Shown: in pieces, positions 3,999 to 22,584 of the stretch
How the letters are laid out: each line of letters opens with the position of its first letter
How positions within the stretch are numbered: the stretch's first letter is position 1
Origin: a virus
IMG/VR virus record: IMGVR_UViG_3300042446_001138
Location: 1-22,584 of that record
Strand: one strand, 5' to 3'
Length of the DNA stretch: 22,584 nucleotides
Made by a program: the position numbers and the translations under genes
Notes under the pieces: model-generated
Told to the model about the DNA's origin: nothing
Seen by the model: the letters and a program-made list of their open reading frames with translations, nothing else
Database searches by the model: none

Positions 3999-4280
3999 AT
4001 GCCAAAATTAAGTCGTAAAGGTGATAAAAATCAAACAGGTGGTGCCATAATACGTGGAGCCGGAACTGTTATTGCCAACGGCATTAATGTGGGATTGCAT
4101 GTTAGTACAATGACACCACATGCCCCATTTGGTCCTCCCCACCCCCCGCATGCAGCCGCAACAACTACCGAAGGTAGCCCTACAGTATTTGCTGAGGGAT
4201 CACCGGTATTAAGAGTAGGATCAGGAAATAGTTGTGGACATAGCATAGTTGAAGGCAGCCCTAACGTAGTTGTCCCATGA
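3999..4280 (+). CDS. PAAR-repeat tail-spike tip protein (93 aa)
   Basis: PAAR proteins form the metal-binding conical tip of contractile-tail spikes (T4 gp5.4 and type VI secretion tips). The length fits. The protein shows the Gly-rich repeat pattern, with recurring EGSP units (TEGSPTVF, AEGSPVLRV, VEGSPNVVV). Candidate metal ligands include His34, His41, His48, His51, Cys79 and His81. The start is one base after the preceding stop, and the stop overlaps the ATG of the large gene at 4277 (ATGA). The context suggests a virion baseplate or spike role and supports the myovirus interpretation. Confidence 0.9.
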   Translation: MPKLSRKGDKNQTGGAIIRGAGTVIANGINVGLHVSTMTPHAPFGPPHPPHAAATTTEGSPTVFAEGSPVLRVGSGNSCGHSIVEGSPNVVVP

Positions 4281-8600: not shown

Positions 8601-9146
8601 CTAAGATGTCCATCTAGGATATCTATTTAATTGCTCTAAAAATACATTAGGATTAAGTTTCCAAAAGGTCTGAGTGTGACCTCTGTATTCTCTTTCAAAT
8701 GATCTAGACAATACATTAGTTTTTTCTAATGACGGAGCATATATATTATGCACTAATTTTTGTGTCCCTACATCGCTAGGATGGGTAGTAATATACATAT
8801 CACCCTTATCGTTTGCCCACTCAATACATTTAGGAATAAAGAATTGTGCTGTAACATGTTGATGACTGATAATTTGATTTCGAGTGCGTAATGTATTTGT
8901 GGGTAGTAGATGAGTTAATACACAGGTTCTAGCACAGATTCTTACACCTTCATCTATTGTGTGTGCCGCTACGCTACCCACAGCAATATTATTATAGTAT
9001 AAAATCCAAACACCCCAACTAGCTTCATTTCGAAAACAATCAATCATTGCTGCCTGCGATGAATTATTCACAAAACCTTTATGCGCCGCATCAGCATAAA
9101 ATTCTGATAAGTTTAAATCTGCGGTCCATGGTATTATAGTATACAT
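8601..9146 (-). CDS. Possible GNAT-like N-acyltransferase (181 aa)
   Basis: The function is uncertain. The layout is compatible with a GNAT fold: an N-terminal helical region, then the strands WGVWILYYNNIAVGSVAAH (about residues 44-62), a second strand (VRICARTCVL), a long helix (HVTAQFFIPKCIEWANDKG), and a strand (MYITTH) leading to the C-terminal region. I cannot see a clear acetyl-CoA pyrophosphate loop of the Q/RxxGxG type, so the assignment is tentative. The start at 9146 overlaps the end of the kinase-like gene upstream by 13 bases. It is the last gene of a three-gene minus-strand unit with a 2OG-oxygenase-like and a kinase-like protein, so it may act in the same modification pathway. 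Confidence 0.75.
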   Translation of the reverse strand: MYTIIPWTADLNLSEFYADAAHKGFVNNSSQAAMIDCFRNEASWGVWILYYNNIAVGSVAAHTIDEGVRICARTCVLTHLLPTNTLRTRNQIISHQHVTAQFFIPKCIEWANDKGDMYITTHPSDVGTQKLVHNIYAPSLEKTNVLSRSFEREYRGHTQTFWKLNPNVFLEQLNRYPRWTS

Positions 9147-9826
9147 TTTACTTTTTCAATGAATTCTATTGGATAGTTTGTACTAAAGCTAGACCAACAT
9201 AATTTATCCATTATTTGCCAAGACTGAGGGGCATCCCATTCTATTCCTAAGGTCTGTATATGTTTACGCATCTCATCCTGTCTAGTTGAGTAGATATGAC
9301 TCTCAACATCTTTTATACTGATATTTGGCTCATCTTTGTGATACGTAAAGAAATAGTTAATACTCTTTAATTTACCATTGACAACAAAATAACTACTAGG
9401 ATGCATACTGTATTTGTGCCATCCGTGTGATTTATGTGCTTTGATTATATCCAACATTTGATCTTGCCAATCAGGTACTACATTATCAAAGTTATTATGA
9501 TCACACCCTGCGCATTCCCAGAAATCTGGACCATCGATTCGTAGATAAATTTTACGTTCCGGTACATTTACTTCTAATATCTCTGGGACTAAATCGGGAA
9601 AATGATATGCCATATTGTGTAAGAAATGCATTTCCCTATGCCATTTTTCATCTATTTTTTTAGGGTCAACTACTTGATTTTGTCCTTTGTGATATTCCGT
9701 ATCGTTATAATACCACTGGCAGAATGTTTTCTTATCTTTACTTATTAAACTTGTATATATTAAATTGTTTCGGCACAGCCCTATATTTGGGACATTGTTA
9801 TAGTAATAAACAAAATTGTCGGTCAT
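9134..9826 (-). CDS. Kinase-fold-like protein, copy A, lacking catalytic residues (230 aa)
   Basis: I infer a protein-kinase/aminoglycoside-phosphotransferase-like fold. WHREMHFLHNM resembles the alphaC helix with its Glu. VPEILEVN and RKIYLRIDG resemble the strands leading to the hinge. WQDQMLDIIKAHKSHGWHKYSMHP resembles the helix entering the catalytic loop, followed by FVVNGKLKSINY where a kinase would have its metal-binding Asp. The catalytic-loop Asp is absent (KYSMHPSS) and the DFG-like position is Asn, so it looks like a pseudokinase or a divergent ligand-binding protein. It shares this layout and the MTD start with the gene at 20885-21580. It lies three bases after the 2OG-oxygenase-like gene and overlaps the possible GNAT gene. 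Confidence 0.85.
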   Translation of the reverse strand: MTDNFVYYYNNVPNIGLCRNNLIYTSLISKDKKTFCQWYYNDTEYHKGQNQVVDPKKIDEKWHREMHFLHNMAYHFPDLVPEILEVNVPERKIYLRIDGPDFWECAGCDHNNFDNVVPDWQDQMLDIIKAHKSHGWHKYSMHPSSYFVVNGKLKSINYFFTYHKDEPNISIKDVESHIYSTRQDEMRKHIQTLGIEWDAPQSWQIMDKLCWSSFSTNYPIEFIEKVKCIL

Positions 9827-9829
9827 ATT

Positions 9830-10432
9830 TTACTTATATATTTCTATAATTTTATTAGTGAATGCAAGATAATCTATCTCACCAAATATTCTCATTGTGA
9901 TCCTAGTCCCTTCAGAACGTGGTACTCGGTGCTTAATTGAATCATTCAATAACATTGCATTACCAAAAACTTTTACATACTCACCTGATTCATCACTCCA
10001 TATTTCACACCAAGTATTACCTGTGCTAGGAATTAAACTGAGTCCCAGAGTATGCGCTTTATCTCCCCTATCGTCCCAATCAGTATGTTCAACACAAGGG
10101 ACATCGGGGAAATAAACTACTCGTATCGCCCCTAAAATATTAAAAGGAAGTGATTCTATTACATGTCTTGTGTATGGAATATTTAATTTATAATCCCACC
10201 CCCATTCAGACTCATTTGCTTGTTTAGCTCCACGATAACTATAATCGATAAATGTTGGATTTACTCTTAGAAATAAACTATAAGCAGTTACTTTATCTAT
10301 ATCACCCCTATTAGGGGGATAAGAGAAGGGGAAACACTTATCACTATCTTGAACAGCCAGTAGTTCTGAAGTCATTTTTTCATAATCTATATCTAAGTTA
10401 AGACTTGCGGCAATAATATCATTAAAATCCAT
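9830..10432 (-). CDS. 2OG/Fe(II)-dependent oxygenase-like protein (200 aa)
   Basis: This is a DSBH protein with the iron-binding facial triad expected of 2-oxoglutarate oxygenases. From the ATG at 10432 the triad is His116-x-Asp118 (VEHTDWDD) and His168 (SIKHRVP). Arg177 or Arg181 (GTRITMRIFG) is suited to bind 2-oxoglutarate. The core resembles aspartyl/asparaginyl-hydroxylase-like and small phage 2OG oxygenases, but the substrate is unknown. An in-frame GTG at 10450 could start a protein six residues longer. I prefer the ATG because a late-promoter-like octamer lies between the two. It leads a minus-strand operon with a kinase-like and a possible GNAT gene and diverges from the TauD/ANL unit. 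Confidence 0.88.
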   Translation of the reverse strand: MDFNDIIAASLNLDIDYEKMTSELLAVQDSDKCFPFSYPPNRGDIDKVTAYSLFLRVNPTFIDYSYRGAKQANESEWGWDYKLNIPYTRHVIESLPFNILGAIRVVYFPDVPCVEHTDWDDRGDKAHTLGLSLIPSTGNTWCEIWSDESGEYVKVFGNAMLLNDSIKHRVPRSEGTRITMRIFGEIDYLAFTNKIIEIYK

Positions 10433-10437
10433 AAAAA

Positions 10438-10445
10438 TATTTATC
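10438..10445 (-). promoter_or_regulatory. Candidate late-type promoter for the minus-strand oxygenase operon
   Basis: Read on the minus strand the octamer is GATAAATA, one mismatch from the T4-like late element TATAAATA. It ends five bases before the ATG at 10432, so any leader would be very short. It lies in the 43-base divergent gap. Confidence 0.4.
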
Positions 10446-10459
10446 GGCACTGTATGCCA

Positions 10460-10467
10460 TCTAAATA
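10460..10467 (+). promoter_or_regulatory. Candidate late-type promoter for the TauD/ANL operon
   Basis: TCTAAATA is one mismatch from TATAAATA and ends eight bases before the ATG at 10476. It is paired head-to-head with the minus-strand element at 10438-10445. No Shine-Dalgarno is evident, so the message would be leaderless or nearly so. Confidence 0.35.
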
Positions 10468-10475
10468 TAACTGTT

Positions 10476-11276
10476 ATGAAATATAAATCAGATAAGAGTG
10501 GATGGCCAGTAGTACTAGAAGATATTGATTTGTGTAAAGTTAGCCAAACAGAAATAAATCAAATTGGAAAATTATTGGCTACAAATGTAGTTGTTGTTGC
10601 AAAGAATCAATCACTTTCCATCGATGATGAGATTTGTGTTTTAGAAATGTTTGATGATTTGTATAGATTTGATGTAGGAAATAACCCAGAAGATTCCCCT
10701 TATAAAAATTGCATAGTAGAAGACAGCAACCAGCGGCTGGTAAGAGTCACCGGCGAATTAGATAGTTCGGGGAACATTGGATTTGCAGCAGATAATGACG
10801 GTATAGGATGGCATCTTGATAATGTACAATCAGCTTATAGGCGATCACTTACATGGCTATACGGAGTTCATGGTACAGTTGGATCAAAAACCATTTATAC
10901 AAATACACTTATGGCTTTTCAGGATTTGGGAGAAGAAATACAAACCAGACTTAAACCACTGACTTTGGATGTTAATTCAAAACATTATTTTCCTAAAATA
11001 GTACAGAGCAACAAATTTCAAATAGATGGGTTATATTTTCCATTCAGACAATTCTTATCAATCAAAGACATATCAGCAGAAGAAAATAAAGAACTTATAA
11101 CCTTATTAACTAATCATATTTTGCAAGAAAAATATATGTATACGCATGATTGGAATGACGGGGATGTACTTATTGCTGACCAATGGTTTGGTATTCATAA
11201 ACGTGAATATTTTTCTAACATGGATAAACGGTTATTACATCGGGCTTATATTAACTATCCAAGAGTTCTTGCATGA
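10476..11276 (+). CDS. TauD/TfdA-like 2OG/Fe(II) oxygenase, copy 1 (266 aa)
   Basis: This is a DSBH oxygenase of the TauD/TfdA/clavaminate-synthase-like group, which hydroxylates or otherwise oxidises small molecules and amino-acid derivatives using Fe(II), O2 and 2-oxoglutarate. The metal triad is His113-x-Asp115 (GWHLDN) and His241 (FGIHKRE), with 2OG-binding Arg256 (LLHRAY). WLYGVHGTVGSKT at about 127-139 and QEKYMYTHDWNDGDVLIADQW at about 217-237 are shared with the two later copies. The start is supported by the matching N-termini of the paralogs (MKYxxxxxGW). Its stop overlaps the ATG of the ANL gene by ATGA, so the two are translated together. Confidence 0.93.
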   Translation: MKYKSDKSGWPVVLEDIDLCKVSQTEINQIGKLLATNVVVVAKNQSLSIDDEICVLEMFDDLYRFDVGNNPEDSPYKNCIVEDSNQRLVRVTGELDSSGNIGFAADNDGIGWHLDNVQSAYRRSLTWLYGVHGTVGSKTIYTNTLMAFQDLGEEIQTRLKPLTLDVNSKHYFPKIVQSNKFQIDGLYFPFRQFLSIKDISAEENKELITLLTNHILQEKYMYTHDWNDGDVLIADQWFGIHKREYFSNMDKRLLHRAYINYPRVLA

Positions 11277-12709
11277 AACTAATTAATAGAGATATTATTA
11301 ACAAAGGGTTGCAAGTCACTAGTCTTAAAATGCATCAACCTATGAATGCTATTAGTAGAGAAATATATTCATATGATGAAGTAATTCTAAAAATAGATAT
11401 TATTAAAGAATTTCTTATAACAAAATACGATGTGACTCCGGGTGAAAAAATTGTGTTAGCGACTTTTTATTGGCCGGATTATATATCATGGATATTTGCT
11501 TGCGCTGAATTGGGGTTGTCTTTTGTTATAATTGATTATCCTAAAACGAAAGAAGCCCTAAAAAAATTTGAAGTATACGGCAAACTCGACTATTTAATTT
11601 ATGATATTCATTATCCGCCGGCGTTTGATGACTCTGATACAAAATTGATTAATGCTAACCATATAAACGATTTCACTTATTCAAACAAATCTACTCCAAA
11701 TTGGGGTAATGAAGATAGTATTTTGATATATGCCGCTTCTTCTGGTAGCACCGGAACTCCAAACGTGGCTACGTATAAACAAAAATACTTCTGGGACCTT
11801 ATTGACAGAAATGCAAATTTATATAACCTTAATGAATCAGATAAGTGTTTTCATTCTAAGATACTACATCACGGAAGCGTTTCCGCTACGTACTTTTTTC
11901 CGACAATAAAACATTGTAAGTATCATTATCACGCACCTTTTCAAATATTCAATAGTGGTGTAGATGAGACTAGTCTAATAAAAACTTGGGTGAATATGCT
12001 TCTAGAAGACCAGATTACTAGGGCTATGTTTTTTTACGATCAATTAGATCATGTCGTAAAACACTTAGACTTGTCTAAAAAAACACATAACAATATGACA
12101 GCCTATGTCATTTCAAAAATTAAACCAGACCATATAAACAAAATAGTCAAAGAATTTGGATATAAAATTGTTTCTATATTTGGAACTACTCAAACTAGTG
12201 GACCATTATTTTTACCTGAAATAAATATTAATAATTGTGATAAAATTGATGCGTCTAATATGGGATTCATCCCAGATGATTTTTATAAATTTAGGATAAA
12301 CCGTGATTCTTTACTAGAGATTAAAACTCCATGGCATGACGATTACATTTGCAGTGGAGATAAATTTGAAGTTATAAATGACCAATGGATTTATAAAGGT
12401 AGAGAAAACATTTATAAAATTAACGGAAGAACAGTGTATACTAATTTGTTGATTGATATTATAGAATCTACATTAAATTTAAAGAATGAAAAAGATTTTG
12501 ATATCGTAGTAGATCAAGAATTTGATAAAATATTTTTGAGATCAACTTATCCAGTCGATTTAGAAAAATTAAATAATGATATATTAAACTATATAAACGA
12601 AAAAGAATATAAAATTTCACTAAATTTAGTGATTGATAGAGATGAATGTTTTAGTGGAATAAAATTTGATCCAGAATACATAAGAATAATATGCAGAAGT
12701 AAACTATGA
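11273..12709 (+). CDS. ANL-superfamily adenylate-forming enzyme (478 aa)
   Basis: This resembles acyl/aminoacyl-AMP ligases, which activate a carboxylate with ATP. The phosphate-binding loop (A3 motif) is at residues 154-168 (AASSGSTGTPN). An A5-like FGTTQ is at 303-307, a CSGD motif (A7) at 360-363, and YKGRENIYKINGR at 374-386 matches the A8 hinge. The usual Glu of A5 is Gln307 and the Lys after TGxP in A3 is Asn164. The C-terminal A10 region is changed (FSGIKFD), so activity may be unusual. No carrier-protein domain follows. ATGA overlaps on both sides place it between two TauD-like genes, suggesting that it activates or ligates the substrate those oxygenases modify. An ANL enzyme in a phage genome is unexpected. 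Confidence 0.9.
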   Translation: MKLINRDIINKGLQVTSLKMHQPMNAISREIYSYDEVILKIDIIKEFLITKYDVTPGEKIVLATFYWPDYISWIFACAELGLSFVIIDYPKTKEALKKFEVYGKLDYLIYDIHYPPAFDDSDTKLINANHINDFTYSNKSTPNWGNEDSILIYAASSGSTGTPNVATYKQKYFWDLIDRNANLYNLNESDKCFHSKILHHGSVSATYFFPTIKHCKYHYHAPFQIFNSGVDETSLIKTWVNMLLEDQITRAMFFYDQLDHVVKHLDLSKKTHNNMTAYVISKIKPDHINKIVKEFGYKIVSIFGTTQTSGPLFLPEININNCDKIDASNMGFIPDDFYKFRINRDSLLEIKTPWHDDYICSGDKFEVINDQWIYKGRENIYKINGRTVYTNLLIDIIESTLNLKNEKDFDIVVDQEFDKIFLRSTYPVDLEKLNNDILNYINEKEYKISLNLVIDRDECFSGIKFDPEYIRIICRSKL

Positions 12710-13572
12710 AATACACATTACATGAGAATGGTTGGACTATACTAGCCGATGTTGATTTAAAAACAATTATTCAAGAGGATGTAGATCATCTTGCAAGATT
12801 AGTTGCAACTAACACCTGTGTAGTATTGAGAAATCAAAAGTTAACGGTATCGGATCAGGTTAAGATTGCTCATATGTTCAAGAACCCAGACCCGTTACTA
12901 ACACCCAATGATTCCTCATTTATTCATTGTGCAGCGGATTTAACTCAGGATCCTACCGGGATAATCTGTCGAGTTAGTGGAATGTTAAATGAACATGGAA
13001 AACCGGGAATTGCGGGTCACATTGATGAAATGCAATGGCACTGTAATCAGCCCTTTAAATTTGACCGAGCCTCAATAGTTTGGTTGTACGGTGTACAAGG
13101 AACACTGGGCTCTAGAACTACATGGAATAACAATATATTATCTTATAATGACTTAGATCAGGATACTAAGGACAAGTTATCAGAATTGCAATGCATTTAC
13201 TTTGGTGGAATGCAACATACTGAAGCATATAAAAAATCAGATTCCTTTAAGGAAACAAAATATGTAATTGAAGATTTTACACCAAAGTTAGTTCATACAA
13301 ACAATGCAGGCAAAACTGGACTTTATTTTTCTCCCTTGCAACTAGAAAAATTTGTAGGAATGTCTAGGGAAGAAAGTTTAGAAATTATTACTCCATTATT
13401 TGAACACACAACACAAGAAAAGTATTGTTATCACCATGACTGGCAAGACGGTGATGTTATTATCAGTGACCAGTGGCTAGGTATACATAAGCGTTGGAGA
13501 TTTGAACAGATTTCTAATCGAATGTTACATCGAATGGTATTTGACTATCCAGATCAAAATTATGAACTATAA
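12706..13572 (+). CDS. TauD/TfdA-like protein, copy 2, metal-ligand Asp replaced by Asn (288 aa)
   Basis: This is a full-length paralog of the neighbouring TauD-like oxygenases. It keeps WLYGVQGTLGSRT, the KYCYHHDWQDGD segment, the distal histidine (LGIHKRW) and the 2OG-type arginine (MLHRMVF). The first half of the triad reads QWHCNQ, so His112 is followed by Asn114 where copies 1 and 3 have Asp. The codon is AAT at 13045-13047. Loss of the carboxylate is known in Fe/2OG halogenases (Ala or Gly there), but it can also mean an inactive partner. A nearby GHID (residues 104-107) is not in the aligned position. The start forms an ATGA overlap with the ANL gene, and the end overlaps copy 3. Confidence 0.92.
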   Translation: MKYTLHENGWTILADVDLKTIIQEDVDHLARLVATNTCVVLRNQKLTVSDQVKIAHMFKNPDPLLTPNDSSFIHCAADLTQDPTGIICRVSGMLNEHGKPGIAGHIDEMQWHCNQPFKFDRASIVWLYGVQGTLGSRTTWNNNILSYNDLDQDTKDKLSELQCIYFGGMQHTEAYKKSDSFKETKYVIEDFTPKLVHTNNAGKTGLYFSPLQLEKFVGMSREESLEIITPLFEHTTQEKYCYHHDWQDGDVIISDQWLGIHKRWRFEQISNRMLHRMVFDYPDQNYEL

Positions 13573-14431
13573 GTTAATAAATGAGTGGGCACCTGTTATA
13601 ACCGATATCGATTTATCGGTTTCTACTCAAGAGGATATTAATACTATTTCTAAATTAATAGCTACCTATTCTCTAGTAGTAATAAAAAAACAAAAATTAT
13701 CATTGTCTGATGAACTACGAGTAGTGAATATGTTTAAAGATATAGGATCTTTTTTAGAAGAAACCGACGAGCAATTAAAATTACTAAAAGTTTCCGGAAC
13801 AAACGGAAAATTACTACGAGTTGGTGGGAAAAAGAATGAATACGGTTCTCCGGGAATATCTAGCCACCCGGAAGAAATGGATTGGCACTTAGATTTTCAT
13901 TGGGCTATGAATTCAAATAATGTTGCATTAATATGGTTACACGGTGTTGAGGGAGTTGAAGGATCTAGAACTTCATGGTTGAACAGCATAAACGCATATG
14001 AAGATTTAGATAAAGACCTTAAGGATTTATTAAAAGATACTACCGCAACTATGGCTAGGTATGTTCAATTTAATGTAAAAAACTTCATTGAAGATGAGAA
14101 TCAAAATAGATGGGCTCCTGGTGAAGAATTCAAAGGGTATCAGCGAAATGTGATTGATGTTAGTCCTGCAGGTAAAAAACATTTATTTTTCCCTTTCTAT
14201 AACATGCATCATTTAAATGATCTATCCAAAGAAGAAAGTAAACCTATCTTTTTACAATTAGCAAAACATATGACACAAGAAAAGTATTGCTATCATCATG
14301 ATTGGGAATTAGGTGACATAGTTATTTCTGATAATCGTTTAGGGTTACATAAACGATGGGCATTTGATAAAATAGAAGATAGATTGTTGCATAGAGCAAT
14401 GTTCGATTACCCAAATGACTTAGAATTTTAA
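13562..14431 (+). CDS. TauD/TfdA-like 2OG/Fe(II) oxygenase, copy 3 (289 aa)
   Basis: This is the third TauD-like paralog, with an intact site: His109-x-Asp111 (DWHLDF), distal His in LGLHKRW and Arg in LLHRAMF. I start it at ATG 13562, giving MNYKLINEW, because it matches the MKYxxxxxGW starts of copies 1 and 2. The open frame upstream to a TTG at 13502 lies inside copy 2. It overlaps copy 2 by 11 bases. The region around residues 165-190 (FIEDENQNRWAPGEEF) differs most from the paralogs and may shape the substrate pocket. It ends the four-gene unit, directly abutting the 3' end of the minus-strand tRNA-like gene. Confidence 0.93.
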   Translation: MNYKLINEWAPVITDIDLSVSTQEDINTISKLIATYSLVVIKKQKLSLSDELRVVNMFKDIGSFLEETDEQLKLLKVSGTNGKLLRVGGKKNEYGSPGISSHPEEMDWHLDFHWAMNSNNVALIWLHGVEGVEGSRTSWLNSINAYEDLDKDLKDLLKDTTATMARYVQFNVKNFIEDENQNRWAPGEEFKGYQRNVIDVSPAGKKHLFFPFYNMHHLNDLSKEESKPIFLQLAKHMTQEKYCYHHDWELGDIVISDNRLGLHKRWAFDKIEDRLLHRAMFDYPNDLEF

Positions 14432-14505
14432 TGGAGCGGCCGGGGGACTCGAACCTCCGTCTCTAGTTTGGACAACTAGCGTAAAACCTCTCTACTACAA
14501 GCCGC
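14432..14505 (-). tRNA. Irregular tRNA-like gene, anticodon by position UCC (Gly)
   Basis: On the minus strand 74 bases fold as a cloverleaf. The acceptor is GCGGCT with GGCCGC, followed by T and an encoded CCA. The D stem is GTAG with TTAC, the anticodon stem CTAGT with ACTAG around loop TGTCCAA, and the T arm GGAGG-TTCGAGT-CCCCC. The T arm and CCA are convincing. The oddities are a six-pair acceptor stem, a single base between acceptor and D stem, an A-C mismatch in the T stem, and G instead of the near-universal U at position 33. By position the anticodon is UCC (Gly), but the irregular loop makes identity uncertain. Its 5' part lies inside the 3' end of the adjacent CDS, whose stop codon falls in the anticodon stem. 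It may be functional, degenerate or a relic. Confidence 0.6.
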
Positions 14506-15354
14506 AGGAATTAAATCCAGTAGTTTTTTGAACATAATATCATTACCCTCAGGAGTTTTGACTGACACTTTAAAGGGTTTCCCTCCGTGAAAAGTGGCAA
14601 GCTCCTTATCCACTATTCCTGACGTAAATTTAAACCATGGGGGATACCAACCATCTTTACCTAAACAATGTATTACTGGGATTTGTTTAGAAGTTAAATA
14701 TTGATCTATTTGTAGTAATGCACCATAATATCGATTTAGTTGCAAGTCAGGATGATACAAGTATTTTTTATGTAGCATTAACGCATCAATTAATTCTTTA
14801 AAAAATATGTTTTCATCAACATATGATTTGACTAAATTCATTAACGATTCTTGTGGGTTTTCTTTTATTAAGGTATCAGAATCTAATTTTATGTTTTGTT
14901 CTTTTGCAATTGAGTTTAGCACTGCAATTACTGGAGCATTCTCGGTACTTGCTATTCTATTGATTTCGAATAATATTTCATCATCAGTAAACTGTACCCC
15001 TTTAGTATTACACCAGTTTTCTATTAGGTCTATTATTTCGGGGTGCTTTTTTATTTCTTCTAATGTAGCACCCTTCATCAAATTAAATTTTTCTACAAGA
15101 TATTCACGTCCAGCTGTGGTCGCATCTCTATGCCATGATGGAATAAAACATACTGTAGGATCAGCATGGAATATGATTGCTATATCTATTTTTTTGATTT
15201 TTTTTAATTGGAGAAGAATTCTTTCCTCTGAACACATAGCGCATCCCGAATTTACTATATTAGCATTAAAATGATCTTGTAATTTAGTTATAAATGACCA
15301 TGGCTCTTTGTGCTCCCAATTGGCAATGCTATGACCAAAAATACCTATATTCAT
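14476..15354 (-). CDS. Possible SGNH-hydrolase-like protein, 3' end overlapping a tRNA-like gene (292 aa)
   Basis: The family is uncertain. The N-terminus MNIGIFGHSIANWE resembles the first strand and block I of SGNH/GDSL hydrolases (usually GDS, here GHS with Ser9). It is followed by NSGCAMCSEE, which sits where an Asn/Gly block could be, and the core strand IDIAIIFHADP. A long helical insert (about residues 75-185) is present, and the end has YHPD and FHGG motifs. Such enzymes are esterases or acyl hydrolases, and some act on glycans. The start is well supported by AGGAAA five bases upstream and by the promoter-like octamer at 15372-15379. The last ten codons and the TAG stop lie inside the tRNA-like gene, so the C-terminus (AACSREVLR) may be fused or acquired. 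Confidence 0.8.
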   Translation of the reverse strand: MNIGIFGHSIANWEHKEPWSFITKLQDHFNANIVNSGCAMCSEERILLQLKKIKKIDIAIIFHADPTVCFIPSWHRDATTAGREYLVEKFNLMKGATLEEIKKHPEIIDLIENWCNTKGVQFTDDEILFEINRIASTENAPVIAVLNSIAKEQNIKLDSDTLIKENPQESLMNLVKSYVDENIFFKELIDALMLHKKYLYHPDLQLNRYYGALLQIDQYLTSKQIPVIHCLGKDGWYPPWFKFTSGIVDKELATFHGGKPFKVSVKTPEGNDIMFKKLLDLIPAACSREVLR

Positions 15355-15359
15355 GATTT

Positions 15360-15365
15360 TTTCCT
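15360..15365 (-). promoter_or_regulatory. Shine-Dalgarno site for the SGNH-like gene
   Basis: On the minus strand AGGAAA lies five bases before the ATG at 15354 and supports that start. Confidence 0.55.
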
Positions 15366-15371
15366 ATACAC

Positions 15372-15379
15372 TATTTATT
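15372..15379 (-). promoter_or_regulatory. Candidate late-type promoter, minus arm of a divergent palindrome
   Basis: On the minus strand this reads AATAAATA, one mismatch from TATAAATA. It forms a perfect palindrome with 15381-15388 around the G at 15380. The SGNH-like start codon lies 17 bases downstream, leaving room for its Shine-Dalgarno. Confidence 0.55.
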
Positions 15380-15380
15380 G

Positions 15381-15388
15381 AATAAATA
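15381..15388 (+). promoter_or_regulatory. Candidate late-type promoter, plus arm of a divergent palindrome
   Basis: AATAAATA followed by CTC is one mismatch from the T4-like late octamer and lies 19 bases before the ATG at 15408. It is the only promoter-like signal upstream of the five-gene operon ending at 19325. Confidence 0.55.
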
Positions 15389-15407
15389 CTCAAAGAAAAA
15401 TAATCTT

Positions 15408-16454
15408 ATGACAGATACCTATTCGTTGTGTGAACATTGCTATAGACATATACCGGCAAATAGATTTATCCGTGATGGGGCGGTGTACTTGGGCAAAACA
15501 TGCATAAAACATGGATATCACGAATGCTTAGTAGAAATTGATAGCGAGTTTTATCTTAGTCAGGATTATGAAAGACGCAATCCACGTAGTTATTGGTTAG
15601 ATATAACTAATAGATGTAATTTAGATTGTCCTCATTGTTATCAGATGCCAGAGAATACTAGTATTGATCCTGCAATTGATTACTTACTATTTCAAATCAG
15701 CAAGTGGCCAGATAATGGGTTTGCAATAAGTTTAGTAGGAGCAGAACCGACAACACGCAAAGATTTACCTGATTTAATTCGTGCAATCCAGGCGTTGCCA
15801 GGACAGCCTAGATTAATAATGATTGTGACTAATGGTATTAATTTAGGTAAAGAAGATTATGCTAAGAAATTTGTGGGTATACCAAATCTGATTTGGACCA
15901 TTGGACTTAATCATCCTGAGTATAATGGTGGTGTAATACGTAAAAAACAAGAAGAAGGTATTAAGAATTGTATTAGACTAGGATTAACTATTAAGAACTT
16001 TACATATACATTGGGTGATCTAAATCAACTACCCTATGTATTAGAAGAAGTTCAAGAATGGAATCGTAAAGGCATTTGTGATAATGCACGTATTCAAGTT
16101 GGGGTCGATATAGGAAGAACTCCGGAAGAACATGAAGCTGAATTATATCTAAGTGATTTAGTTAAAGCTACTAAGCAAGAAACATTGAATAAAAATTGGT
16201 CATGGGAGCCAAGTACAGAAGGTAATCGCACACATTATGCAGTCTATATCAACGGGGTACTACATAGATTAATTAAATGGGTAGATGTTAAAACTATTGA
16301 TTTTAGTGAAGTGTTTAGCGAATCGTTAGCAGAACTTGTACCCGGTAAACCAATGAGTACATTGCTTCATCAAGTTATATTACGTGATAGAGTTATTAAT
16401 GAAAAGCAACCGTTATTTGATACATTACCATTAGAATATAGACAGTATGATTAA
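15408..16454 (+). CDS. Radical SAM protein with N-terminal Cys domain (Tes/COG1964-like), copy 1 (348 aa)
   Basis: This is a radical SAM enzyme. The [4Fe-4S] triad Cys70, Cys74, Cys77 is in CNLDCPHC. A GGEP-like SAM motif reads GAEPTTRKDLPDL from residue 111. The N-terminus has Cys8, Cys11, Cys32 and His35 (CEHCYRH ... GKTCIKHG), matching the small metal-binding domain seen in the group that includes archaeal tetraether lipid synthase and MJ0619-type pterin methylases. Unlike those longer enzymes, it has no visible C-terminal cysteine cluster, so a full auxiliary cluster set is unlikely. I start at ATG 15408; an upstream TTG at 15378 lies over the promoter-like palindrome. The next gene is a paralog overlapping by eight bases. 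The substrate is unknown. Confidence 0.93.
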   Translation: MTDTYSLCEHCYRHIPANRFIRDGAVYLGKTCIKHGYHECLVEIDSEFYLSQDYERRNPRSYWLDITNRCNLDCPHCYQMPENTSIDPAIDYLLFQISKWPDNGFAISLVGAEPTTRKDLPDLIRAIQALPGQPRLIMIVTNGINLGKEDYAKKFVGIPNLIWTIGLNHPEYNGGVIRKKQEEGIKNCIRLGLTIKNFTYTLGDLNQLPYVLEEVQEWNRKGICDNARIQVGVDIGRTPEEHEAELYLSDLVKATKQETLNKNWSWEPSTEGNRTHYAVYINGVLHRLIKWVDVKTIDFSEVFSESLAELVPGKPMSTLLHQVILRDRVINEKQPLFDTLPLEYRQYD

Positions 16455-17511
16455 ATTAGAAGATACATTGGGAATATGTGAGCATTGTTATAGACATGTT
16501 CCTGCAAAAAGATTTATACGTGCAGGCGGCGTATATTTAGGAAAGACTTGTCCAGTGCACGGCTACGTAGAGCATTTAGTTGAACCTGATGTTGATTTTT
16601 ATACTGGATATGAGTATACAAGAAGGGCATTGGAGAGTTATTTTCTAGAAATTACTAACCATTGTAATTTAGCTTGTCCACACTGTTATCAAGAACCTAA
16701 TAATACAACGGCAGACCCGTCAATAGATTATATCTTATCATTGATTGATAGTTGGCCTGACGATGGATACTCAGTTGCTTTAGTAGGTGCTGAACCAACT
16801 ACACGTAAGGATCTACCTGACCTGATTCGTGCTATAAACAATATGAATAAAAAACATAGAAACGTGATGATATTAACTAACGGTGTATATCTAAGTAACT
16901 ATGAATATGCAAAACGATTTACTGAATTTGATTATCTACAATGGACTGTGGGATTGAATCATCCTGAATATCAAGGACATACTGTACGTAGGAAACAAAT
17001 GGAAGGTATTAAAAATTGTACTGATTTAAAACTACCAATTAAAAATGTTAGTTATACACTAGAGACATTGGATCAACTAGAGTATTGTTTAGACGAAATA
17101 CAAGAGTTTGGTGATAGTATTTGTAGTCAATATCGAATTCGGTGTGGTGCGGATATCGGACGATATCCGGGCAGCCCCAAGATATACATGAGTCAGTTAG
17201 TAAATGAAGTAAAATCTATCTCACATACCAAAGGATGGTCTTTCAGCCACAATAATGGAGCTGGTAATCGTAGTCATTATGCAGCCATTATTAATAATTT
17301 ACCAGTTAAGATTATTCAATGGCCCGATGTAAAAACAATTGATTTAGGTGAAGTTCAAACTGAAGCTATTGCTGACATATTACCAGGCAAACCACCAAGT
17401 CCTCTAGTGCATCAAGTTATACTACGTGATGCTATGATTAATAAAAAGATGATGTTATTTGATACTATCCCTAAAGAATATATAGAGAATTATGGCCATA
17501 TTAGGAATTAA
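16447..17511 (+). CDS. Radical SAM protein with N-terminal Cys domain (Tes/COG1964-like), copy 2 (354 aa)
   Basis: This is a tandem paralog of the previous radical SAM protein. The [4Fe-4S] cysteines are Cys73, Cys77 and Cys80 (CNLACPHC), and the GAEPTTRKDLPDLIRAI motif is nearly identical to copy 1. The N-terminal domain has Cys11, Cys14, Cys35 and His38. The C-terminal half is also shared (LPGKP, LHQ/VHQVILRD, LFDT), so both copies keep a family-specific tail. Differences cluster around residues 230-260 (ICSQYRIRCGADIGRYPG), which may set specificity. Two such paralogs side by side suggest a heteromer or two successive steps on one substrate. Its end overlaps the next oxygenase-like gene by 20 bases. 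Confidence 0.93.
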   Translation: MIKLEDTLGICEHCYRHVPAKRFIRAGGVYLGKTCPVHGYVEHLVEPDVDFYTGYEYTRRALESYFLEITNHCNLACPHCYQEPNNTTADPSIDYILSLIDSWPDDGYSVALVGAEPTTRKDLPDLIRAINNMNKKHRNVMILTNGVYLSNYEYAKRFTEFDYLQWTVGLNHPEYQGHTVRRKQMEGIKNCTDLKLPIKNVSYTLETLDQLEYCLDEIQEFGDSICSQYRIRCGADIGRYPGSPKIYMSQLVNEVKSISHTKGWSFSHNNGAGNRSHYAAIINNLPVKIIQWPDVKTIDLGEVQTEAIADILPGKPPSPLVHQVILRDAMINKKMMLFDTIPKEYIENYGHIRN

Positions 17512-18298
17512 TAATAATCCGTACTTTGATATGGAATCATACTTAGATATGTTAGAGTTTGACAGACTACAGCCTGAAATTATACGCGGGTTTGCTGAAG
17601 CACGTGAGTTTGCAAAAGAAGGCACATGGATGAAGCCTGGCTTTACTTTTGAGCAAATGAGTTATAAACATAACTGGAAGCCCATCTATCAAGCAATGGA
17701 TGAGTTCATGGAACTACCCAAAGATGATCCTATATATATGGGTGGAATAGATTTATTTAAAGACTTTAATAACTATAAACAACGTAATAAATTTACTCGC
17801 TATCTTAAAATGGTTATGGGCGCATATGATCCTTATATCTATTATTTCTTATGGGAGGAAGGGTCATGGGATGATCGTACTGCACCACGTAAATTAACAG
17901 AAGAAGCACAGTATTTCCCAGGCACTGTTAAATGGGTTGAAGATATGATTGCAAATAATATCTTTGAACACATAGGTCGTGTTATATTCTTTCACTGTGA
18001 AGCAGACGGGATACCCTTTGAGCATAGAGATTTAGATGCTAAGAACGGAATTAATAATCATGGTCCGCATCGTAACGAATTCATACATATACGTCCTAAT
18101 ACTAAAAAAGCCTTTTACATATGGGATCCTGAACTTAAGAACAAAATCTATTTAAATACAAGAGCCGCATGGTGGAATGACAACGACTGGCACGGTGGAG
18201 AAAAGATAATGGAACAGAGTTATAGCTTACGCATTGATGGTAAGTTTACTGATGATTTCAGAAAGAAACTAGGAATTGATCATTTGGAGACTTATTAA
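17492..18298 (+). CDS. 2OG/Fe(II)-oxygenase-like protein (268 aa)
   Basis: The N-terminal two thirds are helical and unfamiliar. The C-terminal part has a DSBH pattern: His-x-Asp in FEHRDLDA (about residues 177-180), a strand IHIRPNTKKAFYIW, and the distal His in NDWHGG, then SYSLRIDG where an Arg could bind 2-oxoglutarate. This supports an Fe(II)/2OG oxygenase-like role, though the spacing is not the standard one for the small paralogs downstream. The ATG at 17492 lies within the end of the radical SAM gene (20-base overlap); a second possible start is the ATG at 17531. Its stop overlaps the next ATG (TAATG). It probably works with the radical SAM pair. Confidence 0.85.
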   Translation: MAILGINNNPYFDMESYLDMLEFDRLQPEIIRGFAEAREFAKEGTWMKPGFTFEQMSYKHNWKPIYQAMDEFMELPKDDPIYMGGIDLFKDFNNYKQRNKFTRYLKMVMGAYDPYIYYFLWEEGSWDDRTAPRKLTEEAQYFPGTVKWVEDMIANNIFEHIGRVIFFHCEADGIPFEHRDLDAKNGINNHGPHRNEFIHIRPNTKKAFYIWDPELKNKIYLNTRAAWWNDNDWHGGEKIMEQSYSLRIDGKFTDDFRKKLGIDHLETY

Positions 18299-18798
18299 TG
18301 ATTTACATAGGAAACTATTCACATTGGATAAAAGATGAATGGATAGAATATCTATGCAATAACAACGGGACTCTTAGACCAAAAACTGCTAACGAGAACC
18401 CAGATAGTCAAGAGTTTAGAATAGCTACTGCTGCCGGGTATGATTTATCTAAAACATATTGGCATCATTATACTAACACTAATAATACTTTTCCTTTGCA
18501 GTTAGAACTTCCCTTTGCCAATAATCATTCTCATATATGGTGGTTTATTAAAATGACTCCTGGACAGTTCATGCCCATGCATAAAGATCCGCACGCCGTT
18601 GAAGAACAAGATGTTAAACGATATTGGATGGCCCTACAAGATTATGAAGAAGGTCATATACATATTAACAATAGACATTTTTTATCTGATTATAAAAAGG
18701 GAGATTTATGGATGTATGATGACCCTATGTCTATACACGGTGCTTGTAATATCGGATATTCTCCTAGACTAGTTTTCAACTTTAGTACATACAAATAG
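18298..18798 (+). CDS. Small 2OG/Fe(II)-oxygenase-like protein, paralog 1 (166 aa)
   Basis: This is a compact DSBH protein with the full oxygenase triad: His95-x-Asp97 (MPMHKDPH), distal His147 (PMSIHGA) and Arg157 (YSPRLVFN), ten residues after the distal His, as expected for 2OG binding. The core also has GHIHINNRHFLSDYKKGDLW. The N-terminus (MIYIGNYSHWI) is shared with the next gene, and the two align throughout. The gene starts at a TAATG overlap with the previous gene. Such minimal oxygenases are common in marine T4-like phages, where their function is mostly unknown. The substrate here is unknown, but the operon suggests joint action with the radical SAM proteins. Confidence 0.92.
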   Translation: MIYIGNYSHWIKDEWIEYLCNNNGTLRPKTANENPDSQEFRIATAAGYDLSKTYWHHYTNTNNTFPLQLELPFANNHSHIWWFIKMTPGQFMPMHKDPHAVEEQDVKRYWMALQDYEEGHIHINNRHFLSDYKKGDLWMYDDPMSIHGACNIGYSPRLVFNFSTYK

Positions 18799-18800
18799 CT

Positions 18801-19325
18801 ATGAAATATATAGGAAACTACAAGTCTTGGATTGAAGAACAAGAGATTATGAAACACCTTACTAATTGTCAAGGTGATCGTACTCCGGTATGGCAACCTG
18901 ATCGTTGGAGCGGGAATCCAACATTAGAAAAATTTAAAGAAATGGCTCGTTCAGGCTACTCAAACAACAATTTTTTCTTTCACCAAATGAATCCAAAATC
19001 TGAAGAAATGCAGAATTTTAAATTTACATTACCAAAAACTCCTGATAATCGTAGTAAAGTAAATTGGTGGTTTGTAATGTTATATCCGGGCGAGTTTCAA
19101 GCTATGCACATAGATCCGCAATTGACTGAAGTTAAAAATTTTGTACGTTATACAATGTTTTTACAAAATTGGGAACCAGGGCATATATTTGTATGGGATG
19201 ACAAATACATATCTAATTATAAAGCCGGAGACATGTACGAATGGAATGATCCTATGACTGTACACGGCCCTGCTAATATAGGATATAATACACGGTATAC
19301 CTTACAGATTACAATGTACGATTGA
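18801..19325 (+). CDS. Small 2OG/Fe(II)-oxygenase-like protein, paralog 2 (174 aa)
   Basis: This is the paralog of the gene two bases upstream, sharing the N-terminal MxYIGNYxxWI and the C-terminal strand pattern. The triad is His103-x-Asp105 (AMHIDPQ) and His155 (TVHGPANIGYN), with Arg165 ten residues later for 2-oxoglutarate. It has the same GHIF...NYKAGDMYEW arrangement before the distal His. It is the last gene of the plus-strand operon beginning at 15408, and its final 17 bases overlap the 3' end of the convergent radical SAM gene. No membrane segment or extra domain is present. Confidence 0.92.
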   Translation: MKYIGNYKSWIEEQEIMKHLTNCQGDRTPVWQPDRWSGNPTLEKFKEMARSGYSNNNFFFHQMNPKSEEMQNFKFTLPKTPDNRSKVNWWFVMLYPGEFQAMHIDPQLTEVKNFVRYTMFLQNWEPGHIFVWDDKYISNYKAGDMYEWNDPMTVHGPANIGYNTRYTLQITMYD

Positions 19326-20400
19326 GTTGCTCGCTGATTTTAATAAACGGACCGTTATTGCCGCAAAGTATTTTACAAGTTGATGATGAGTTATCATCCC
19401 ATTTATGGCGGATTAATTTTTGCCAAACATCAGTTCTCATAATATTTTTAATAGAATGTTTTTTTGAGTCTAATGCATCCAGTCCGCCAAGTTCTTGAAT
19501 AATAGAAAAAACTTCTAGTTGAACTTCTCTAGCAATACTAGTAATACTAGTTTCATCTATAATACCGTACTTACGATACAGTTCAACATCGTAATTAGCA
19601 TACAAAAAAGACCCTATTAAACAGCACGGCATTAGATAACCGTTAGCATCTATATAAAGTTCTTTAGAGTCAACCGCAAAACAACTGATATCAGTTTTCC
19701 ATTCTTTATAATTTTTTAAATCTAAGAACTCTACTGGTTTAATATCACTGTTGATAGGAGGTTCTATATAGTAATTGATAGCCCCTTTTCTATCAAGTAC
19801 TGGAAATTTTTTACCAAATCTTTTACTATCTTTTGTAGAAAATTTTGAAAATCCTAGTTTAGATGATATGTTTCTTGCCTCATCCACTTGATGCTCATTA
19901 TGTTTAAACCTTATAAAAATCCATTCTGCATTGCCGCCGCCGTCTATAAAGGCTTTAGCATTTTTTATGATGGTATTATAGTTAGTTCCAATTCGATAAA
20001 GACTATGAGTATCCACTAGTCCGTCTAAAGCAAATACTACTCTATGGTTCTTTGGTAATGCAACAGCTAAAGATTTCCACCATTGCGTAGTTTGTGCCGA
20101 ACCATTCGTATTAATCACAATTTCTAAACTAGATTTTTTTGCACTGATATATCGGCACATTTCTAATAAATCAGAGTTGATAATAGGATCACCGTAATCG
20201 CCACAGAAATTAATGCAAGATACTTGATTTAAAACTTCGTCAGTAAACGTATTCTGAAACCTCTCTAGTGTCCAATCTGTTAAAACTAAGTTAGGGTTAT
20301 CAATTCCGCTGTGTATGTTTCTAAGACACATGGGACAACTAGCTTGACACCGATTAGTGATTTCAATTTGTACAGTATGCAGTAGTTCAAAGGAAAACAT
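19309..20400 (-). CDS. Radical SAM protein with SPASM-like C-terminal cysteines (363 aa)
   Basis: The [4Fe-4S] triad is Cys18, Cys22, Cys25 (CQASCPMC) near the start, preceded by the usual strand HTVQIEITN. A glycine-rich motif INFCGDYGDPI takes the GGEP position. The C-terminal third holds more cysteines: SCFAVDSKELYIDANGYLMPCC and, near the end, TCKILCG. This pattern resembles SPASM or twitch domains that carry auxiliary iron-sulfur clusters in peptide- or small-molecule-modifying enzymes. It starts directly after the stop of the 2OG-oxygenase-like gene (TAAATG) and ends in a convergent overlap. It is probably the last gene of a four-gene unit entering from beyond the right edge. Confidence 0.92.
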   Translation of the reverse strand: MFSFELLHTVQIEITNRCQASCPMCLRNIHSGIDNPNLVLTDWTLERFQNTFTDEVLNQVSCINFCGDYGDPIINSDLLEMCRYISAKKSSLEIVINTNGSAQTTQWWKSLAVALPKNHRVVFALDGLVDTHSLYRIGTNYNTIIKNAKAFIDGGGNAEWIFIRFKHNEHQVDEARNISSKLGFSKFSTKDSKRFGKKFPVLDRKGAINYYIEPPINSDIKPVEFLDLKNYKEWKTDISCFAVDSKELYIDANGYLMPCCLIGSFLYANYDVELYRKYGIIDETSITSIAREVQLEVFSIIQELGGLDALDSKKHSIKNIMRTDVWQKLIRHKWDDNSSSTCKILCGNNGPFIKISEQLNRTL

Positions 20401-20892
20401 TTAATATCCTATAACATGAAACATATACTTGTTTGTTAGGCCACCATTGATTCCATTATGCCAGTCTTTGTGATTACCCCATTTAAGTATTGTGCCCTGA
20501 GGTTTATTGTAGAAATATTCTTTACCTAGTATAAACAAATGTCCAACCGTTGGTTCACTAATAAAAATAGAATAGCGTTTTAATAATCCATGTTTTAAAT
20601 ATTCTTGCTCGTTATCATCTATATCATAATGATAACCAGTCATGTAGCCAGGTTCTACACAACTAATCCAACTACGCAACACAATAACACCTACTTGCTT
20701 AGATATTTCTTTTTCAAGATCCGCAGTCTCATAATAGTTTGTCCACCTAACACCATCAGTGTTAAAGTTATTATCCTTCCATAACTTTAACATTTCTGCA
20801 TATTCTGGATTGTTTATGTTCCAACGTGCAGAATCAACAGTAACAACCTTACCGTTTACCAAGTTACTGATAACTGTATTCCAATTAATCAT
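20401..20892 (-). CDS. 2OG/Fe(II)-oxygenase-like protein, Lys at the usual 2OG-Arg position (163 aa)
   Basis: This DSBH protein has an intact metal triad: His88-x-Asp90 (GYHYDID) and His145 (DWHNG). The residue ten positions after the distal His, Arg in the paralogs at 18298 and 18801, is Lys155 (TNKYMFHVIGY). It could still hold 2-oxoglutarate or reflect another co-substrate. SIFISEPTVGHLFILGKEYF forms the central strands. I chose ATG 20892 rather than the upstream TTG at 20919 because it is an ATG that overlaps the end of the previous gene by eight bases, like other junctions here. It lies between a kinase-like gene and a radical SAM gene. Confidence 0.88.
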   Translation of the reverse strand: MINWNTVISNLVNGKVVTVDSARWNINNPEYAEMLKLWKDNNFNTDGVRWTNYYETADLEKEISKQVGVIVLRSWISCVEPGYMTGYHYDIDDNEQEYLKHGLLKRYSIFISEPTVGHLFILGKEYFYNKPQGTILKWGNHKDWHNGINGGLTNKYMFHVIGY

Positions 20893-21580
20893 TATAGACT
20901 TCTTCGAATATGTCAGCAAACACAGTATTACCCCAACCTTTTCCTTGTAGATGTTTTGTTACAGTAATTTCAAAAAACTTTTTAAAATCAATAAAACCTT
21001 TTTCATCAGTTGATTGATCAAAACGATAGGAACCGTCCTTGCCTATAATACCTTCAATTATTTTTCTTTCTATAAATCTTTCTTCATAGGGAATAACAGC
21101 ATAGTGGTCTATAGTTTTTAGTTGACCGTCTTTTGAAATAAAGAAACAATTTGGGTACAGTGATGTTTTCCAGAAGTTATTTGCCTTTGTGGAAATAAAA
21201 AAGTCTTTCATCTGTTTCTTCCAAGTCGGAACTTCTGTGTCTAAGTCTCTACCCGGAGTATACAACACTTGCGATAATGTTTCTTTGTTCCATTCCATAA
21301 AGATTTTTCTATGGTTATAGTCTACATCATAAAGTATCGGAGTAGTTGTGAGATGCGATAATTGTTTTAAAAATTTAGCATCTCTGTTAAAAAACCATTC
21401 TATTAAATCTTCTGCTACTATTACTGTTTCTTCAGGTCTGTAATCTGCGTCAATACAATAGTGAGCACACATTATTGTTTGCTCTGGATTAATTCTAGGA
21501 GTGTATAATAAATTTGACGGATATCTATCTCCGTTGGGATTTAGCTTATGATAATATCCCCAACTGCTTATATCTGTCAT
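20885..21580 (-). CDS. Kinase-fold-like protein, copy B, lacking catalytic Asp (231 aa)
   Basis: This is a distant paralog of the protein at 9134-9826. Shared features are the MTD start, a SNLLYT/NNLIYT segment near residue 25, an alphaC-like helix (RDAKFLKQLS), a hinge-like strand (RKIFMEW), the W-x-x-QM helix and a catalytic-loop-like region (KTSLYPNCFFI). DGQLKTIDHYA follows, where the Asp could match the DFG Asp. The catalytic loop lacks the expected HxD, so it may bind nucleotide or metabolite without phosphorylating, or be a pseudokinase. The kinase fold is inferred from this layout only. ATGA overlap with the upstream radical SAM gene and overlap with the next oxygenase indicate one coupled operon. 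Confidence 0.85.
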   Translation of the reverse strand: MTDISSWGYYHKLNPNGDRYPSNLLYTPRINPEQTIMCAHYCIDADYRPEETVIVAEDLIEWFFNRDAKFLKQLSHLTTTPILYDVDYNHRKIFMEWNKETLSQVLYTPGRDLDTEVPTWKKQMKDFFISTKANNFWKTSLYPNCFFISKDGQLKTIDHYAVIPYEERFIERKIIEGIIGKDGSYRFDQSTDEKGFIDFKKFFEITVTKHLQGKGWGNTVFADIFEEVYND

Positions 21581-22584
21581 AGTTTACTCCAACTTAGTTT
21601 TTTATTAATATAACTTTGCACCTGATCTTTAAACTTTTGATCTGCTGAGTTTATATCTGATACTTTGTAGTCGTAAATATGTTCGTATACATTGGTTTCA
21701 TAATATGCAAACAGTCTATCCGATAAGAATGGATTACAACCTTTACGTCCAATAAAACCACCGGTCCTAGAATAAAATTCCTGCACTAAAGATTCTGCTT
21801 GGTACCAATCCATAGTATGATGTTTCCAAATAACAATGTCATTTCTAGTACTTCCAACGCCACCGCCTCGGGGTGTCGTAGATTTAAATACTACGTGACC
21901 GCTACTATCTTTAAAAACTTCGTAGCCTGGATTTTGTCTAGCTTCTAATTTAATTAATCCGTTACTTACTAGTTCTTTAGTAAACTTACTTTGATTAGTT
22001 AGTGATTCATCGTAATCAGGAACTTCAAGTATATGTGCGCTAGCACTTTGTCTAACCCATTTGGTGTTCAACCATTCTAATGAATTGTTCCAAGACTCTA
22101 CGCTTTCGCCGGGTATTCCACAAATCATCTGTATATTTGCTCTATAACGTCTATGTGCATGAATATCCGTATATGCTTGGAAGTCTAATAAGCCTTCTCG
22201 CAACTTATCAGGATCCATACCCTTGCGTACAAGTTTACCAGCTTCATGATTAAACGTTTCAATGCCCATGCTGTGTCCAAGGAAGCCTAATCTAATGTAA
22301 GTATCCCAATATGCCTTGTGTTTAACAACCAAGTCTCCGCGGGCAAATCCGCATATCCAGGGGTTGTAATTTAGTTCGTCTACCGCGTCAGCATACTTTT
22401 GTAATTTTTCAGGACGGTCGTTAAATGTCTCGTCCATAACACGCCAATTTTTAATGCCCCACTTTTCAAACCCAGTTTGCATTTGAAGTTTAAATTGTTC
22501 TTTACTAACACTAACGTCCTTAGCTTGTCCTATGATAGGAAAGTTACAGTAAGAGCAACTGAACATACAACCACGTGCTGTTTC
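21577..22584 (-). CDS. Radical SAM protein, 5' end beyond the window
   Basis: The reading frame is open through the right edge. The first visible residues are ETARGCMFSCSYC, containing the CxxxCxxC radical SAM cluster motif in the ARGCxFxCxxC form typical of B12-binding radical SAM enzymes (BchE-like class). An N-terminal cobalamin domain may therefore lie outside the window. Downstream motifs include MDETF (about 40 residues after the cysteines), GHSMGIETFN and MICGIPGESVESW, which match strands of the radical SAM barrel. The C-terminal part (from about residue 200 of the visible sequence) is specific and unrecognised. The stop overlaps the kinase-like start (ATGA). The substrate is unknown; if a cobalamin domain is present, methylation of an unreactive carbon would be likely. 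Confidence 0.92.
   Translation of the reverse strand, partial: ETARGCMFSCSYCNFPIIGQAKDVSVSKEQFKLQMQTGFEKWGIKNWRVMDETFNDRPEKLQKYADAVDELNYNPWICGFARGDLVVKHKAYWDTYIRLGFLGHSMGIETFNHEAGKLVRKGMDPDKLREGLLDFQAYTDIHAHRRYRANIQMICGIPGESVESWNNSLEWLNTKWVRQSASAHILEVPDYDESLTNQSKFTKELVSNGLIKLEARQNPGYEVFKDSSGHVVFKSTTPRGGGVGSTRNDIVIWKHHTMDWYQAESLVQEFYSRTGGFIGRKGCNPFLSDRLFAYYETNVYEHIYDYKVSDINSADQKFKDQVQSYINKKLSWSKL

Follow-up and report, generated by a model that had tools for sequence, protein, structure and literature searches.

Our data show that a 22,584-nucleotide stretch of a virus record in IMG/VR (IMGVR_UViG_3300042446_001138, positions 1-22,584; hereafter the window) carries most of a compact, widely conserved enzyme cluster, which probably makes or attaches a chemical decoration. 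This cluster, the island, runs from position 8601 to the window end (22,584) with no intergenic gap longer than 44 bp, and encodes proteins of the 2-oxoglutarate (2OG) oxygenase and radical S-adenosylmethionine (SAM) types together with two pseudokinases. We give a probability of about 0.4 to the reading that the island is a tail-fibre-linked decoration pathway of uncultured T4-like phages, in which a constant core is combined with variable tailoring enzymes. The genes of the island are listed below, with E values for profile matches, histidine-motif residues for the oxygenases, and frequencies among the 51 loci described after the list.

8601-9146 (-): A, conserved core protein of 181 amino acids, present in 48/51 loci
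9134-9826 (-): B, pseudokinase 1, protein-kinase fold, HRD Asp replaced by Ser and DFG Asp by Asn
9830-10450 (-): C, accessory 2OG-like oxygenase (H122xD124...H174), 11/51 loci
10476-11276 (+): D, TauD-family 2OG oxygenase (Pfam TauD, E 4e-18)
11273-12709 (+): E, adenylate-forming enzyme (Pfam AMP-binding, E 3e-8, above cut-off)
12706-13572 (+): F, TauD-family protein with HxN for HxD (Pfam TauD, E 1.5e-25), family in 37/51 loci
13562-14431 (+): G, TauD-family 2OG oxygenase with HxD (Pfam TauD, E 2e-31)
14476-15354 (-): H, protein with GHS at the position of the SGNH GDS motif (SGNH-like profile, E 0.04)
15378-16454 (+): I, radical SAM protein with an HMPTM-type N-terminal zinc ribbon (Zn_ribbon_HMPTM 3e-13, Radical_SAM 4e-10)
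16447-17511 (+): J, core radical SAM protein with an HMPTM-type zinc ribbon (Zn_ribbon_HMPTM 1e-12, Radical_SAM 1e-12)
17492-18298 (+): K, core 2OG oxygenase of the double-stranded beta-helix (DSBH) type (H178xD180...H234, R247; AlphaFold2 fold)
18298-18798 (+): L, Asp/Asn-hydroxylase-like 2OG protein (PF05118, E 1e-4, just under cut-off; H95xD97...H147)
18801-19325 (+): M, core 2OG-like protein related to L (H103xD105...H155), 51/51 loci
19309-20400 (-): N, radical SAM/SPASM protein (SPASM above cut-off), 21/51 loci
20401-20919 (-): O, core 2OG-like protein (H97xD99...H154), 51/51 loci
20885-21580 (-): P, pseudokinase 2, remote paralogue of B, HRD Asp lost and DFG-position Asp kept, 51/51 loci
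21577-22584 (-): Q, radical SAM domain of a B12-binding radical SAM protein (Radical_SAM 5e-11)

Q extends past the window end, which cuts off its N-terminus, and the island therefore reaches beyond the window.

Scanning IMG/VR with J identified 51 viral loci; K, M, O and P occur in all of them, and A and B in 48, with order and strand largely the same. Profiles of K and B retrieved 419 and at least 382 encoding stretches, respectively; in the best 80 of each, a B/P-family gene accompanied K in 80/80 loci, at least two radical SAM genes were present in 76/80 K loci, and K was present in 77/80 B loci, where retrieval through island genes biases the frequencies of the query families and leaves the linkage of the remaining families unbiased. 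Merging overlapping sequences gave 101 virus groups, and in 43 of 84 groups six core features keep their canonical side and strand. In three long contigs the island families form one block of 23-29 kb (at 160-184, 72-95 and 22-51 kb), outside of which we found only a few twitch- or B12-type radical SAM genes and fibre matches. The number of radical SAM genes is 7-17 in each of twelve long island contigs, compared with 0-1 in six cultured phages. The ratio of nonsynonymous to synonymous substitution (dN/dS) between the window and its nearest relatives is 0.04-0.12 for genes I to Q (I 0.04, L 0.05, P 0.09, Q 0.04), values that are rough because synonymous sites are near saturation for several genes. 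The genes thus form a real linked island rather than a chance pile-up, and strong purifying selection acts on its core. An earlier note, made from the window's sequence without database searches, had taken this density of enzymes as a sign of a dedicated multi-step modification system; the density is confirmed, judged against cultured phages and by the conserved gene order, and the idea of such a system is supported by a linked and ordered unit under purifying selection across about 100 virus groups. The gene co-occurrence analysis over viral metagenomes that it had proposed revealed linkage, the opposite of the scattered, unlinked loci it had named as refutation. Smaller second clusters of 3-4 radical SAM genes lie apart from the main island in two contigs (G013, 14.8-19.4 kb; G001, 38-42 kb).

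The core consists of the pseudokinases B and P, K, usually A, oxygenases of the L/M/O type, and radical SAM proteins of the zinc-ribbon and twitch/SPASM types. Related islands continue past the window with an Asp/Asn-hydroxylase-like protein (family c8), a PP-loop protein (c9), SGNH-like proteins and additional zinc-ribbon radical SAM proteins. They also carry a radical SAM protein with an N-terminal twitch domain (NF033640, above cut-off), and a family (c12) that looks aminotransferase-like by eye, without Pfam support. Single islands gain a class III aminotransferase, a hexapeptide transferase or methyltransferase-like proteins, and one locus encodes a tryptophan halogenase (L143, 10221-11795, -; Pfam E 3e-88) with 27-32% identity to enzymes of cyanophages, Syn9 and Syn10 among them. 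Since the extra enzymes differ between islands, a constant core is joined by a changing tailoring set, made up of TauD oxygenases, the adenylation enzyme, methyltransferases, PP-loop and aminotransferase-like proteins and, in relatives, the tryptophan halogenase.

Islands of this family often lie beside tail-fibre genes. Of the 59 virus groups with sufficient flanking sequence, 35 encode an Mtd_N-domain protein on the A side, where it is mostly the outermost recognised gene, and seven of eight long contigs with Mtd_N have one copy near the island edge. The naive probability of this edge placement is ~4e-8, which overstates the case because the phages share ancestry. Phages outside the K/B set encode the adenylation enzyme, usually with DUF6356 and often with two twitch radical SAM proteins, near Mtd_N fibres or fibres that we label tail-collar-like by eye, without a Pfam match. 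Because of this linkage to fibre genes, we favor a surface or virion target.

B and P are pseudokinases built on the protein-kinase fold, as predicted for B. The two are 26% identical (E 1.5e-15), and a joint B/P profile matches the protein kinase TTK in the PDB (E 5e-6). Foldseek likewise places the AlphaFold2 model of B (pLDDT 93.8) with protein kinases (E 2e-6). The catalytic Asp of the HRD motif is missing in 62/62 aligned members, with Ser in every B and either Ala or Ser in every P, and His or Tyr occupies the position of the catalytic-loop Lys. The DFG Asp is retained in P and is an invariant Asn in the B group, where the loop KYSMHPSSYF is almost invariant. B and P have in common with eukaryote-type protein kinases the fold and the Glu/Asp position of the C-helix; they differ in lacking the catalytic Asp, in having mostly lost the usual beta-3 Lys, and in their length of ~230 amino acids. 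Because the catalytic residues are replaced and the B loop is nearly invariant, binding or docking appears to fit these proteins better than phosphotransfer. The description of these genes as kinase-like in the earlier note was therefore right about the fold, but does not extend to catalysis.

The oxygenases and radical SAM proteins are as the earlier note had read them: eight 2OG-type proteins (C, D, F, G, K, L, M and O), seven with HxD...H and one, F, with HxN, and four radical SAM proteins (I, J, N and Q). C, K, M and O have no 2OG match in Pfam, and we assigned them by motif, by the fold of K, and by homology (L-M, E 1e-32, 34% identity; M-O, E 1e-5). The C triad (H122xD124, H174) is conserved across 10 sequences. 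K is the most conserved protein of the island, in which H178xD180...H234 and R247 vary little or not at all. It is also the only one of the eight with a predicted structure: the AlphaFold2 model (pLDDT 87) adopts the DSBH fold and matches L-proline cis-4-hydroxylase and PHD2 in Foldseek. The HxN of F (residue 114) is found in 42/54 relatives, and is thus a feature of its clade rather than a sequence error; judged from these sequences, this TauD clade may have either an unusual metal site or a role as a non-catalytic partner.

Among the radical SAM proteins, I, J and Q pass the Pfam cut-off. N reaches 26.4 bits for Radical_SAM against a cut-off of 29.5 (E 9e-6), passes for SPASM, and has strong partial matches in NCBIfam. 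I and J are 56% identical, and their best NCBIfam matches are TrsS and Tes; that of Q is a PhpK-type B12 radical SAM protein. The scores (~77, 68 and 59 bits) fall far short of the curated equivalog cut-offs for TrsS, Tes and PhpK (490, 450 and 600 bits), so the island proteins do not belong to these families. A full-length relative of Q combines a weak B12-binding match (E 2e-4) with the radical SAM domain, suggesting that full-length members probably add an N-terminal B12-binding domain. PADLOC recognised no defence system, giving one PDC-M51A match for Q and partial viperin-like matches of 27-39 bits over the radical SAM core; a family-level match to prokaryotic viperin was absent.

The adenylate-forming enzyme E, which the earlier note had missed, shows a partial NCBIfam AA-adenyl-dom match (4.5e-8) and conserves the P-loop SSGSTGTP, the GD and GR motifs and the catalytic Lys464. 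Of the hallmarks of a nonribosomal peptide synthetase, E supplies the adenylation domain, and Pfam matched neither a carrier nor a condensation domain in the 19 island and FkbM proteins scanned. Used as a single-sequence probe, E found no viral relatives, while a four-sequence alignment found 48 viral loci; a small DUF6356 partner gene lies beside the adenylation enzyme in 32 of these (for example L284, 4528-4782, +), and two twitch radical SAM genes often come next. The E gene of the window lacks the DUF6356 partner. In two loci the adenylation enzyme adjoins a protein that looks arginine-amidinotransferase-like by eye and has only a weak arginine-deiminase match in Pfam (L290, 6895-8010, +; L293, 6850-7929, +), with a cytidylyltransferase nearby in L290 and a sugar-nucleotide-type epimerase in L293. 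Our searches did not confirm two other suggested identities. A had been read as a possible GNAT protein, and has no match in Pfam, PHROGs or NCBIfam, nor in the PDB with profile A3. H had been read as a possible SGNH protein; it has no Pfam match, its SGNH-like profile match does not confirm the assignment, and it has one relative (53% identity) among the 51 loci.

In the fibre-linked decoration pathway that we propose, the oxygenases and radical SAM enzymes would act stepwise on one common substrate through C-H hydroxylation and radical C-H chemistry. The phage's fibre or adhesin would carry this substrate or be its destination, and B and P would dock the substrate rather than phosphorylate it. 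The variable enzymes would make the decoration specific to each phage, and its likely purpose would be receptor binding, or escape from changes in the host surface or host defences. We are least sure that the fibre protein itself serves as the acceptor. Several observations weigh against this proposal. The window shows no Mtd_N gene, its left flank instead holding the FkbM genes, a lysis-like gene, a 677-amino-acid protein and a PAAR protein, and one related island (L089) lacks any radical SAM gene. Where fibres are adjacent they are ordinary and Cys-poor, with no obvious modification motif. In T4-like phages the fibre-adjacent site is the usual place of insertion for unrelated cargo, so the fibre linkage may reflect a shared hotspot. 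Finally, the adenylation-enzyme islands L290 and L293 hold nucleotide-sugar-type genes, which would also fit glycan synthesis.

Nearly as likely as fibre decoration is that the island makes a small molecule, either soluble or linked to a lipid or glycan and probably derived from an amino acid, which would decorate the host surface (superinfection exclusion) or act as a diffusible metabolite. The conserved catalytic motifs of E and the conserved DUF6356 partner in relatives support this explanation, as do the class III aminotransferase and tryptophan halogenase of relatives, the cytidylyltransferase and epimerase near related modules, and the methyltransferase-like and hexapeptide-transferase genes. 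It also has a precedent in pelagimyophage islands that bear glycosyltransferases, which have been interpreted as modifying the host O-chain (PMC7029224). However, a carrier protein, a condensation domain, an export system and a recognisable glycosyltransferase are all missing from the window, and E is present in only 13/211 loci, a minority that places it outside the core chemistry. A separate and improbable explanation is a pathway for a ribosomally synthesised and post-translationally modified peptide (RiPP) whose precursor is encoded elsewhere. SPASM/twitch and B12-type radical SAM proteins together with 2OG hydroxylases do recall heavily modified RiPPs, and the island enzymes give partial NCBIfam matches to RiPP maturases. 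N carries SPASM, yet no RiPP equivalog scores above its cut-off, we recognised no recognition domain, protease or exporter, and the gaps of 98 islands (44 bp or less in the window) hold no widely conserved small peptide open reading frame (ORF).

The island could also be a hotspot for unrelated auxiliary enzymes that share no product and serve, for example, to draw down 2-oxoglutarate. It would then be one more use of the plastic fibre-adjacent region of T4-like phages, where multiple cyanophage 2OG oxygenases have been interpreted as part of 2OG/NtcA manipulation (PMC3037559). The window island is indeed a mosaic, with F, G, I, J and K nearest to one related locus (L005) and M to Q nearest to other lineages. 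The fixed composition, order and strand of the core, the near-obligate pairing of pseudokinases with K, and the strong purifying selection make this as unlikely as the RiPP pathway. Slighter still is the chance that the enzymes hypermodify phage DNA bases or tRNA, even though 2OG, radical SAM and PP-loop enzymes are all known from nucleic-acid modification pathways. Nucleobases had been among the example substrates of the earlier note, and our results disfavor them: 11 long contigs gave no Tet_JBP match (weak evidence, since the control was also silent), thymidylate synthase occurs in 2 of these 11 and far from the island, and no window enzyme passes the cut-off for a known nucleic-acid-modifying subfamily.

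At the sensitivity of our searches, profiles of B and K found no relatives in 84,980 bacterial and archaeal genomes, and none of B, J, K and M had a relative among 50,697 cultured phage records; consensus sequences of family c10 and of the twitch radical SAM proteins also had no match in cultured phages. Gp23 was detected in four long island contigs, which identifies these four as T4-like, and was not detected in the other contigs tested, many of them fragmentary; contigs with no Gp23 match may be fragments or more divergent phages. ORFs that resemble IF-1 or RpoZ (RNA polymerase omega) by eye lie near some islands (L145, 3580-3798, +; L143, 1931-2170, +; L217, 17462-17698, -). We considered contamination by host DNA on account of these ORFs and of metabolic genes, and rejected it: contig G015 reads as a phage, with NrdA/B, PAAR and long fibre genes.

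The window resembles G015 in NrdA, NrdB, glutaredoxin and PAAR. From its left end the gene order is NrdA, NrdB, glutaredoxin, a small protein, a PAAR-motif protein, the 677-amino-acid protein, a lysis-like gene, two FkbM methyltransferases and the island. NrdB is nearest to those of Xanthomonas phage X1 and Stenotrophomonas phages (57-60% identity), which does not fix the host. The 677-amino-acid protein (4277-6310, +) has no match in cultured phages or Pfam and is a possible tail or baseplate component. The methyltransferase pair at the island edge, already named as FkbM-type, is confirmed as such:

6947-7744 and 7753-8595 (+): two tandem FkbM-family methyltransferases (Pfam Methyltransf_21, E 4e-12 and 1e-18; NCBIfam fkbM_fam)

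The two copies are 42% identical. We found no FkbM homologue among the conserved island families, and the pair is therefore probably accessory.

We put forward, as a doubtful but specific idea, that the island is a phage-only machine in which pseudokinase docking scaffolds, oxygenases and radical SAM enzymes place strain-specific chemistry on the receptor-binding fibre or on a ligand attached to it. If true, this would be a chemical counterpart of the sequence diversification of tropism determinants. The function is now open to testing, given a defined core, at least 419 uncultured viral stretches that encode it, and no cultured-phage or cellular counterpart among those searched. The island family is also a large untapped source of 2OG and radical SAM enzymes, with up to 17 radical SAM genes per phage contig, and its conserved pseudokinases are an unusual case in bacterial viruses.

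The closest known arrangements are found in cyanophages and pelagimyophages. In cyanophages Syn9 (gp41-gp60) and Sf-CH11 (genes 92-95), 2OG oxygenases and tryptophan halogenases lie beside tail-fibre or structural genes, and some of the 2OG proteins match a 2OG profile of the island (c44, best E 1e-16). Their proteins have no convincing match to other island profiles (c14 at E 0.002 only), and unlike the island, Syn9, Sf-CH11 and S-PM2 have no radical SAM protein. These cyanophage oxygenases and halogenases have no agreed function, and the island shows that membership in an ordered core pathway is possible. The host recognition cluster of pelagimyophages combines tail fibres with gene cassettes, radical SAM proteins among them, in a large hypervariable island; it is characterised by glycosyltransferases and a lack of synteny, and the freshwater pelagimyophages of that study are stated to lack radical SAM genes (PMC7029224). 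The core of our island, in contrast to that cluster, keeps its order. An enzyme-rich plastic region beside the fibre genes of T4-like cyanophages has also been described (PMC3037559), while no description of a conserved core, paired pseudokinases or such a density of radical SAM genes was found among the open-licence papers searched. The general kind of region, plastic, enzyme-rich and fibre-adjacent, is therefore known, and there is a real chance that the pathway itself is categorically new.

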